DNA from: Nocardioidaceae bacterium
Lineage (GTDB): Bacteria > Actinomycetota > Actinomycetes > Propionibacteriales > Nocardioidaceae
DNA: 64,000 nt
NCBI GenBank assembly: GCA_030447865.1
Contig: JAUJOD010000001.1
Coordinates: 978,909-1,042,908, forward strand
Reading direction: 5' to 3'
Both the position numbers and the translations under genes were made by a program. This document shows positions 37,306 to 60,091 of the stretch, in pieces (the first letter of the stretch is position 1; each line of letters opens with the position of its first letter). The notes below the pieces were generated by a model. That model ran no database searches. It was not told where the DNA came from and saw nothing but the letters and a program-made list of their open reading frames with translations.

Positions 37306-37378
37306 GCCGGCGTGGCGCAATTGGCAGCGCATCCGACTTGTAATCGGAAGGTTGCGGGTTCGAGTCCCGCCGCCGGCT
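37306..37378 (+). tRNA. tRNA-Thr (anticodon TGT)
   Basis: A full cloverleaf folds: acceptor stem GCCGGCG/CGCCGGC, D-arm GCGC/GCGC, anticodon stem TCCGA/TCGGA around CTTGTAA (anticodon TGT, reads ACA), and T-arm with TTCGAGT. The discriminator is T and no CCA is encoded. The genes after it are a patchwork of broken mobile sequence, so the 3' end may be an integration site. Confidence 0.95.
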
Positions 37379-57478: not shown

Positions 57479-58162
57479 TCACTCGGGCGGGATCGACCAG
57501 TCGATCGGCTCTGCCCCCTGCTCAACCAGCAGGGCGTTGGCCCGACTGAACGGCCGTGACCCGAAGAACCCTCGGGCTGCCGACAGCGGCGACGGGTGCG
57601 GGCTGGCGATAACCGTTACGTCGCGCAGCGCGGGCCGCAACGACTGGGCGTCGCGCCCCCACAAGATCGCCACCAACGGTCCGCCGCGGTCAACCAAAGC
57701 CGCGATCGCGGAGTCGGTGAACTCCTCCCATCCCCGGCCGCGGTGGGAGCCCGGAAGTCCGGGCTGCACCGTCAGCGACCTGTTCAACAGGAGCACGCCG
57801 CGGTCGCTCCAGGCCGACAGGTCTCCGTGCGGCGGCGGCCGTACCCCCACGTCGTCCTCGAGCTCCCGGTAGATGTTCGCCAAGCTCCGCGGGAGCGGTC
57901 GCACCCGCCGGTCGACCGAGAACGCCAGGCCCACTGCATGACCGGGGGTCGGATACGGGTCCTGACCGACGATCAGCACCCGAACCGACTGCAACGGGGT
58001 GGTGAACGCCCGCAGGATGAGGTCGCCGCGCGGCAGGAAAGTCCGCCCGGCGGCGACCTCCGACCGCAGGAACTGGCCAAGCCCGCTGAGCGTCGACGCG
58101 ACGGGCAGCAGGGCGGTGGCCCAGTCCGGAGACACGATGTCAGCGAGCGGAGCGGGCGTCAT
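57479..58162 (-). CDS. ung: Uracil-DNA glycosylase (family 1)
   Basis: This 227-residue enzyme removes uracil from DNA. Motif A is [17 protein letters not shown] (catalytic Asp near residue 68), the Leu/Ser loop is [24 protein letters not shown], and [10 protein letters not shown] is the third signature. Length is normal. ATG 58162 is the start. It lies upstream of nothing else on its strand and beyond otsA by 510 bases. Confidence 0.96.
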
Positions 58163-58316
58163 GGGATCTCACTGTGCCGCAACGCGGTGGCCGTTTGCAG
58201 CCGCCCGTTGGCCTCTCCGGCGTGTCAGTGCGGACACGCCGAGGCCCTCAAAATCGAGGCATATTTCTGGTGACGAGGTCTTGCGCGTCGCGTTGACGGG
58301 AGGATAGAAATCTACC

Positions 58317-58527
58317 TACGGACTTCGGAAACGGAGTCCGGGGCGGATCGGAAGCTCTGGTCACGACCGGCGGGTTTAGGCCCGACGGCGCGGAGCCGGG
58401 AAACTGGCTTCGGTCCCGTCCGGTGACGGGCGGATGGACCAGGTGGGAAGATTCGTCGTCTCAGACGTCACCGCTGAGACAAAACGGAGGCTCCGCAAAC
58501 TCATACTTTGCGGAGCCTCCACCCTTT
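58317..58527 (+). ncRNA. Structured non-coding RNA candidate ending in a strong terminator
   Basis: Four local stems and a long-range helix fold on the plus strand. Hairpin 1 (58320-58339) has an 8-bp stem and a GAAA tetraloop. CTGGTC (58357-58362) pairs with GACCAG (58437-58442) to close a multibranch unit holding a CGGG/CCCG hairpin (58371-58384), a GGAGCC/GGCTTC hairpin (58392-58411) and CCCGTC-CGGT-GACGGG (58415-58430). GTCTCAG (58458-58464) pairs with CTGAGAC (58474-58480). A 14-bp perfect terminator hairpin follows. Two helices use G-U pairs that would be A-C mismatches if read on the other strand, which favours the plus strand. No coding frame is supported here. Candidate promoter: TTGCGC (58281-58286), 18 bases, TAGAAA (58305-58310). 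I do not recognise it as tmRNA, RNase P, 6S, SRP or 5S RNA. Confidence 0.6.
58486..58527. terminator. Perfect 14-bp hairpin with T-runs on both sides
   Basis: GGAGGCTCCGCAAA (58486-58499) pairs exactly with TTTGCGGAGCCTCC (58507-58520) around a seven-base loop. On the plus strand the hairpin is followed by CCCTTTT, and on the minus strand by GTTTTG. It should end both the plus-strand RNA and the leftward otsA transcript (58673). Confidence 0.8.
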
Positions 58528-58672
58528 TCAGGGGCTTGGAGCAGCTAGCAGCGGACTTCGAGTCGCGATCCTGTGGCCTCAGCCTACTCGTGACCTGCCA
58601 GGTTCGCCGGATGTGGCGCGACGTGTCGGCCGCTTTCCGCCGTGCACTGGCCGGGCGGGTGCGGACGAGCCC

Positions 58673-60091
58673 TTACGCCGAGCGGCGGAGCTCGTCGGTC
58701 GCGTCGAGGTCGGTGAGGAACCCTCTCGCCCAGGCGGAGATGTCGTGCTCGCGTACCTGTCGGCGCATCGTCCGCATCCGTCTGGACAGGTCGCGAGGCG
58801 CCGCACGCATCGCCGCCCATATCGAGTCCTTGAGACCATTGATGTCGTAGGGGTTGACGAGGAAGGCCTGCCTGAGCTGGTCCGCTGCCCCAGCGAACTC
58901 CGACAGCACCAGGGCGCCGGTGTCGTGGTAGCGGCACGTGACGTACTCCTTGGCCACCAGGTTCATCCCGTCGGCGAACGGGGTGACGACCATGATGTCG
59001 GCCGCCTGGTACAGCGCGGCCATCTCGTTGCGCGGGAACGAGTTGTGCAGGTAGTGGATCGGCTGATAGCCGATCCTGCCGAGGTCGCCGTTGATGCGGC
59101 CGACCCAGCGCTCGATGTCGGCACGGACCTCTTTGTACTGGTCAACGCGTTCGCGGCTCGGCGACGCCACCTGGACGAAGACGGCATCCTCCACCTTGAT
59201 CCGACCATCGGCGATGAGCTCACCGAAGGCCCGCAGCCGGGGCCGGATCCCCTTGGTGTAGTCGAGCCGGTCGACACCGAGCAGCACATGCGGCGGGTCG
59301 CCGAGCTCGTCGCGGATCTGAGCCGCACGTGCCATGACCGCGGAGGTCTTGGCTAGTGCTTCCAGCCCGTGGAAGTCGATCGAGATGGGGTAGGCGCGCG
59401 CCCCGACGGCCCGGCCGTCCGCCAGCACGATCTTGTCTCGGTGGGTCTTGTGGCCGAACCGCAACCGCACCAGCCGAACGAAGTTGGCGGCGCCACCCGG
59501 CCGTTGGAACCCCACCAGGTCGGCGCCGAGGAGGCCTTCCAGGATCCGGTCCCGCCATGGCATCTGCCGGAACAGCTCGGTGGGCGGGAACGGGATGTGG
59601 AGGAAGAAGCCGATCCGCAGGTCCGGGCGTCGCTCCCGCAGCATGGCCGGGACCAACTGCAGCTGATAGTCCTGGACCCACACCACAGCGCCCTGCGCCG
59701 CGGCATCGGCGGCAAGGTCAGCGAACCGCTGGTTCACCTCGACGTACGCCTCCCACCATTCCCGGTGGAACGCCGGCTTGGCGACGACGTCGTGATAGAG
59801 CGGCCACAGGGTGCCGTTCGACATGCCCTCGTAGTAGTGCTCGACCTCTTGGGACGAAAGCTCCACGGGCACAAGCGACAAACCGTCGGCCTTGAACGGT
59901 GAGTAGTCGTCGAGCTCGCCGCCCGGCCACCCGATCCACACGCCGTCGTGCTCGCGAAGGACGGGGTGGAGAGCCGTGACCAGCCCGCCGGGGGAGGCCC
60001 GCCAGCCCGGTTCGCCGTCGGCTCCGGTGACCCGGTCGACGGGCAGCCGGTTGGCGAGGACGACGAAGGAGCTGGTCGGCTGGTCGGCCAC
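58673..60091 (-). CDS. otsA: Trehalose-6-phosphate synthase (GT20)
   Basis: This 472-residue GT-B enzyme joins UDP-glucose (or GDP-glucose) to glucose 6-phosphate. GT20 signatures: VLANRLPVDRV at the N-terminus, HIPFPPTELFRQMPWRDRILEGLLGADLVGFQ, LGVDRLDYTKGIRPRLRAF, and DGMNLVAKEYV. GTG 60091 is the start. The pathway partner otsB is 3.4 kb away on the other strand, so the two are separately transcribed. Length and motifs are complete. Confidence 0.96.
   Translation of the reverse strand: MADQPTSSFVVLANRLPVDRVTGADGEPGWRASPGGLVTALHPVLREHDGVWIGWPGGELDDYSPFKADGLSLVPVELSSQEVEHYYEGMSNGTLWPLYHDVVAKPAFHREWWEAYVEVNQRFADLAADAAAQGAVVWVQDYQLQLVPAMLRERRPDLRIGFFLHIPFPPTELFRQMPWRDRILEGLLGADLVGFQRPGGAANFVRLVRLRFGHKTHRDKIVLADGRAVGARAYPISIDFHGLEALAKTSAVMARAAQIRDELGDPPHVLLGVDRLDYTKGIRPRLRAFGELIADGRIKVEDAVFVQVASPSRERVDQYKEVRADIERWVGRINGDLGRIGYQPIHYLHNSFPRNEMAALYQAADIMVVTPFADGMNLVAKEYVTCRYHDTGALVLSEFAGAADQLRQAFLVNPYDINGLKDSIWAAMRAAPRDLSRRMRTMRRQVREHDISAWARGFLTDLDATDELRRSA

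Follow-up and report, generated by a model that had tools for sequence, protein, structure and literature searches.

A predicted free-standing small RNA of Nocardioidaceae and neighbouring actinobacteria carries a terminator hairpin with an invariant CUCAUAC loop

A predicted small-RNA gene lies between ung and otsA

The window, i.e. the whole 64,000-nucleotide stretch of DNA that was analysed, contains the genes ung (57479-58162) and otsA (58673-60091), both located on the minus strand and identified by NCBIfam and Pfam. Between them, on the opposite strand, lies a predicted structured small-RNA gene (58318-58527, plus strand) with a length of about 205-210 nt. A previous sequence-only reading had proposed an unnamed structured RNA between ung and otsA, a location that is borne out by the two gene identifications, and had suggested comparing it with Rfam and examining homologues for covariation. 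It had also stated that the 210 bases hold no supported gene. Correspondingly, a closed ORF is absent within 58318-58527, and the ORFs in homologous RNAs are shorter than those in shuffled copies, for which reason a coding gene was rejected.

A sigma70-like promoter, TTGCGC-N18-TAGAAAT, spans positions 58281-58311 on the plus strand. Its -35 element (TTGCGC, 58281-58286) and its -10 element (TAGAAAT, 58305-58311) are both conserved in homologues. From the spacing to this promoter, the RNA is predicted to start at A58318 within a conserved YYYACG context; the start thus shifts from 58317, the position given by the sequence-only reading, while the helices described there were retained. In class A, the class with a window-like body, 67 of 74 RNAs are preceded by a promoter that fits a strict regular expression (TTGYGN, spacer of 17-18, TAGAAMT). 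Among the remaining seven, two loci are clipped by the end of a contig or of the fetched stretch, and others show near variants by eye. A strict match also occurs within 520 nt upstream of 126 of 160 CTCATAC hairpins (some loci duplicated), compared to a background of 0.038 per 500 nt.

The plus-strand fold is supported by covariation

The fold energy of region 58300-58527 on the plus strand was -126.1 kcal/mol (z = -8.7 against dinucleotide shuffles), compared to z = -5.4 for the reverse strand, in agreement with the earlier proposal that a plus-strand fold is favoured. The GAAA-capped hairpin, the CTGGTC/GACCAG unit, the 7-bp stem and the 14-bp terminator of that proposal were all found where it had placed them. 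The 5' hairpin P1 (58319-58340; strands 58320-58327/58332-58339) bears the GAAA tetraloop and shows changes on both sides in seven of its eight pairs. P2 (58342-58349 with 58450-58457) is part of the minimum free energy fold, with covariation at 58347-58453 and 58349-58450. P3 (CTGGTC/GACCAG, 58357-58362/58437-58442) closes a multibranch unit and has both-side changes in five of six pairs. The P4 region (58364-58412) was taken from the window fold, and all five pairs counted there covary; it forms two hairpins in the window and, by reading, in the close relatives L003-L005, and one in most homologues. The P5 hairpin (58416-58433) covaries in seven of seven pairs, and P6 (GTCTCAG/CTGAGAC, 58458-58480; strands 58458-58464/58474-58480) has a stem of 7 bp. 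The terminator hairpin P7 (58486-58520; strands 58486-58499/58507-58520) consists of a perfect 14-bp stem, which covaries around a constant loop, and is followed by the U-containing tail ACCCTTTTCA (58521-58530). All of these elements lie on the plus strand.

RNAalifold returned 35 pairs, 27 of which carry compensatory changes. When a G-test was run over the alignment without any structure supplied, the strongest pairs included those of P1, P4, P5, P6 and P7 and also P2. In alignment A4, which includes the kissing pairs described below, both-side changes occurred in 44 of 61 pairs. Here, 78.3% of the cells were paired, compared to 65.9% after shuffling, and 290 double-change cells were counted against 121 ± 9.5 in the shuffles, a value that none of 500 shuffles reached; slid controls gave 52-111 such cells. 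Support was strong for P1, P4, P5, the kissing helix and P7, and moderate for P2, P3 and P6, where 46-56% of the cells were paired (P2 52%, P3 56%), partly because A4 is imperfect in those stretches. Covarying homologues, as suggested for examination by the sequence-only reading, were thus obtained, and the predicted product is a plus-strand structured RNA composed of P1, a multibranch unit (P2-P5), P6 and P7.

P5 and P6 are predicted to be locked by a kissing-loop contact

For the hairpin at 58416-58433, the preferred interpretation is a stem with a loop A (GGTGACG, 58422-58428) that kisses loop B (CGTCACC, 58466-58472) on the 7-bp stem of P6, both on the plus strand. In the alignment-wide G-test, the long-range pair 58427-58467 reached z = 10.8 and was canonical in 62 of 62 sequences. 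Of the 86 class A RNAs, 81 have a strict loop-loop complement of 6 bp; of the other five, judged by inspection, four can pair with a shift in register or with wobbles, and one is disrupted. The contact of the window, which is paired throughout in the alignment, occurs in several covarying versions (GTGACG/CGTCAC, GTGATG/CATCAC, GTGTTG/CAACAC, GTAACG/CGTTAC, GTGGTA/TGCCAC). RNAs of class B and of f36 use their own loop-loop pairs, such as AATGTTG/CAACATT (L035) and, by reading, GTTGACG/CGTCAAC (L219). Stems of at least 5 bp surround the kissing loop in 67% of cases for P5 and in 80% for P6, compared to 20% and 39%, respectively, with shuffled flanks. In the window, freeing both loops costs about 10 kcal/mol of nested structure, which would have to be repaid by a 7-bp kissing helix. 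Judged by these pairing patterns, the P5-P6 kissing-loop lock is part of the predicted RNA fold.

Homologues occur at different loci in Nocardioidaceae and neighbouring actinobacteria

More than 80 homologues of the same architecture were found in Nocardioidaceae and neighbouring actinobacteria. When 149 related genomes were searched at the DNA level, near full-length relatives at 70-74% identity were obtained, together with many further matches confined to the terminator, most of which turned out to be full homologues once aligned. A pattern scan of GTDB gave at least 118 loci. Among the matches listed, the taxa include Nocardioidaceae (Nocardioides, Marmoricola, Aeromicrobium), Phycicoccus, Knoellia, Janibacter, Intrasporangium, Flexivirga and Nanopelagicales, as well as others, and the bodies fall into class A (75 loci), the Nanopelagicales-rich class B (29 loci) and several smaller classes. 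A covariance model (R1) built from 34 class A RNAs matched in 59 of 396 good genomes of the class and in 27 of 123 genera, with up to four copies per genome, part of these matches being to the terminator only. The window copy, which belongs to the model seed, scored 113 bits (E = 2.1e-22 per genome). At some loci (L008/L028 (G022:C281), L033, L034 and L146), two complete class A genes are arranged in tandem or close to each other; the second copy in L008 has lost its kissing complement. A search of phages, plasmids and viral contigs returned no match, and an origin from phages or plasmids was rejected.

Among the loci examined, the placement between ung and otsA is restricted to L001, L003, L004 and L005 and to the broken copy L002. 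In other clades, the RNA adjoins different genes (DUF445-like, 5-oxoprolinase-like, thrS, adenosine deaminase and others, mostly assigned by reading), so that no linked neighbour gene is common to all. These different neighbours argue against a cis-acting leader or riboswitch, as does the opposite strand of the next gene in the window. Together with the conserved promoter, they support the earlier view of a free-standing plus-strand RNA. In twelve loci, a same-strand upstream gene read as DUF445-type precedes the RNA (L021, L024, L072, L074, L082, L121, L126, L132, L184, L186, L189 and L191).

The sister genome G001 (L002:1520-1640) carries a truncated copy at the ung/otsA locus. Its 5' half is kept, the -10 region is altered, and the part corresponding to about 58367 to 58675 of the window, from the multibranch interior through the terminator, is missing. 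The RNA gene therefore seems dispensable, unless the G001 assembly is wrong at this site; the patchy distribution and the decayed copy both suggest that it is not essential.

The terminator loop is invariant on a stem of free sequence

The loop of P7 consists of the seven nucleotides CUCAUAC (58500-58506, plus strand), and in many genomes the terminator loop reads AACTCATACTT. Within genus g7, the flanks of the loop vary (GA..TC, CG..CG, CA..TG) with CTCATAC unchanged. We searched 396 genomes with the stem-neutral pattern GGNNC-N6-CTCATAC-N6-GNNCC, in which the 12 loop-adjacent bases are free. This gave 105 matches, 81 of which pair at five or more of the six free positions (about 4% expected); as all seven loop letters were fixed, these numbers describe stem variation around a constant loop, miss members with a changed loop and give no frequency for other loops. 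The same pattern with five instead of six free bases served as a chance control and had 16 matches listed in the 396 genomes. Eighty hairpins represented 48 distinct sequences, with A-U, G-C, U-A and C-G as closing pairs. By hand count, the loop hairpins occur in about 53 genomes and 13 families (labels of the tool). At the level of sequence comparison, what is conserved is thus the 7-nt loop C-U-C-A-U-A-C, while the sequence of its stem is free to vary. CUCA fits the YUNR rule and is a potential U-turn, and the loop has the same size as an anticodon loop.

The same hairpin occurs on other RNA bodies and at mRNA ends

Class B RNAs share the promoter and the 5' hairpin with class A and mostly have their own loop-loop complement. 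Longer or different bodies with the CUCAUAC hairpin were found in L201, L218-L232, L260 and L261, and minimal RNAs that comprise a short hairpin and the CUCAUAC terminator in L066, L091 and L246/L256. In six g7 genomes (L249-L253, L255), the hairpin is located directly 3' of an adenosine deaminase gene; the six stems all differ, and the loop is the same in each. The adenosine deaminase was confirmed by Pfam in L249 and for the gene beside the L006 RNA; the other five were called by reading the same conserved C-terminus. Promoter and hairpin thus recur together on bodies that are unrelated or minimal, and the hairpin by itself at some mRNA 3' ends. This pattern argues for the hairpin rather than the body as the shared element.

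Several further arrangements were observed. In L006, a class A RNA is located just upstream of the adenosine deaminase gene, and in L019/L081 a DUF445-type gene ends directly in a CUCAUAC hairpin, with the RNA body being absent. The minimal RNA in L066, L091 and L246 contains a GGUGUCGGA...GACAU-type hairpin followed by the CUCAUAC terminator, the distance between the -10 element and the loop being about 48-50 nt. Tandem CUCAUAC hairpins spaced 60-70 nt apart occur in L246/L256 and L257, once downstream of a minimal promoter-driven RNA. In L113, upstream of 6607 (plus strand), a class C body contains near-identical tandem units (GACCCGCACCCGTGGGACGCACGACCGCTTCGGCGGCACGGC).

The RNA apparently represents a new family

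The Rfam comparison suggested by the sequence-only reading (release 15, gathering and permissive thresholds) gave no family at or above threshold for the RNA. The best matches below threshold were sodF_sRNA (20.9 bits, threshold 46) and microRNA models; the sole Rfam match across the window is a tRNA-Thr (TGT) at 37306-37378. A Ro60/Y RNA was rejected, as a TROVE-domain Ro protein is present in one of 38 genomes. Searches of the open-access literature gave no description of either the loop or the family. An own promoter, an intrinsic terminator, lack of coding capacity and a conserved structure, the hallmarks of free-standing bacterial sRNAs, are all present. The RNA apparently belongs to a new, widespread family of this known kind, the free-standing structured sRNA, and its novelty lies mainly in the shared invariant 3' loop. 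Features that come in addition to the sequence-only reading are the promoter, the contact between the P5 and P6 loops, the constant terminator loop of 7 nt and the occurrence of the hairpin on unrelated RNAs.

Discussion

We consider it probable that 58318-58527 (plus strand) is a free-standing gene whose small RNA product acts in trans, with its scaffold displaying a potential U-turn loop to a single partner. The RNA would be transcribed, its body would protect or position the 3' hairpin, and the CUCAUAC loop would be the surface by which this partner, shared by all hairpin-bearing RNAs, recognizes them. Candidates for the partner, which would dock onto the hairpin, are RNA chaperones, factors for stabilisation or processing, and binders of the anticodon-arm type.

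Parts of this arrangement are known from other systems. In sibling sRNA families such as the 6C RNA of actinobacteria, the cuckoo/CCUCCUCCC-loop RNAs of alphaproteobacteria and LhrC, each family has one conserved loop. Similarly, several RNAs per genome show the same loop here, with multiple copies and a patchy distribution; however, the loop is not a C-rich anti-Shine-Dalgarno sequence, and it sits on the terminator, with unrelated bodies and mRNA ends. Terminator modules at the 3' end that bind Hfq occur in sRNAs and in sRNAs derived from 3'-UTRs. They resemble the present case in that a common 3' terminator element marks different sRNAs and some mRNA ends for one protein, but a clear U-rich tail of the Hfq type is missing here and the mark would be the loop sequence.

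As the common partner, a protein is more probable than a fixed mRNA target, because the hairpin is grafted onto unrelated bodies and mRNA ends with all seven loop positions constant and the loop length fixed. Base pairing is nevertheless a possible alternative, in which CUCAUAC would be the antisense seed for GUAUGAG targets, with AUG at their center and start codons as potential sites. Related sRNAs that combine a single seed with differing bodies have precedents. Loops with a YUNR U-turn are established as a scaffold for rapid contacts between RNAs, as in the antisense loops of hok/Sok and pIP501 RNAII/RNAIII (PMC6562991). CUCA in its 7-nt hairpin loop fits this rule, but the cis-encoded sense partner of those systems is absent here, and the loop is invariant across many families. 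Outside the hairpins, GTATGAG occurred 26 times in 856 kb of carrier-genome sequence, compared to 18-33 times for four variants that keep GTATG, a test of low power. Generic targeting of start codons thus found no support, and rRNA as a pairing partner was rejected as GUAUGAG is absent from the 16S and 23S rRNA of two carrier genomes. The lack of a GUAUGAG excess and of an rRNA complement also favors a protein, but these negative tests are weak, and base pairing therefore remains a serious rival.

Actinobacteria are not generally known to possess the standard sRNA chaperones. With regard to how their sRNAs are recognized, a hairpin with a constant loop offers a concrete handle on the partner. 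Tentatively, the 3' CUCAUAC hairpin may be a transferable 'address label' for one RNA-binding protein of actinobacteria, which would be at the centre of an sRNA system in bacteria without Hfq and ProQ, with the window RNA as one of its clients. If true, many unrelated sRNAs and some mRNA 3' ends would share one label and one reader protein.

On its free stem, the loop has exactly seven nucleotides, with U33, CAU at positions 34-36 and A37. This could also suggest mimicry of the CAU anticodon arm of tRNA-Met or tRNA-Ile2, by which the hairpin would titrate a tRNA-modifying enzyme or an anticodon nuclease. Bacterial CAU-anticodon loops normally end in A38 (CUCAUAA). As a mimic would be expected to keep this A38 and the present loop always has C at position 38, we regard such a decoy as unlikely. 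Even less probable is a 6S- or Ms1-type RNA that binds RNA polymerase. Like these RNAs, which measure 200-300 nt, the window RNA is a free-standing structured sRNA of about 200 nt from an actinobacterium, with its own, housekeeping-like promoter, and Ms1 has been reported in Nocardioidaceae (PMC9130861). However, the 6S covariance model (RF00013) was not matched. Ms1 folds into one long hairpin that has a bubble at its centre and short hairpins at its ends (PMC4191392), whereas the window RNA has a covariation-supported multibranch fold with a kissing loop and the CUCAUAC hairpin, and Ms1 was rejected by this difference in fold. Ms1 is also syntenic with HAD hydrolase and oxidoreductase genes (PMC9130861); a HAD hydrolase was not noticed among the contexts read, whose neighbours were annotated in part and mostly by reading. 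It is equally improbable that the locus is merely an efficient bidirectional terminator with a favourable loop and incidental structure upstream. P7 does resemble an intrinsic terminator and lies between convergent transcription units, but an invariant loop on a varying stem is not expected of terminators, and a conserved promoter, the kissing loop and covariation in the body also argue against this reading.
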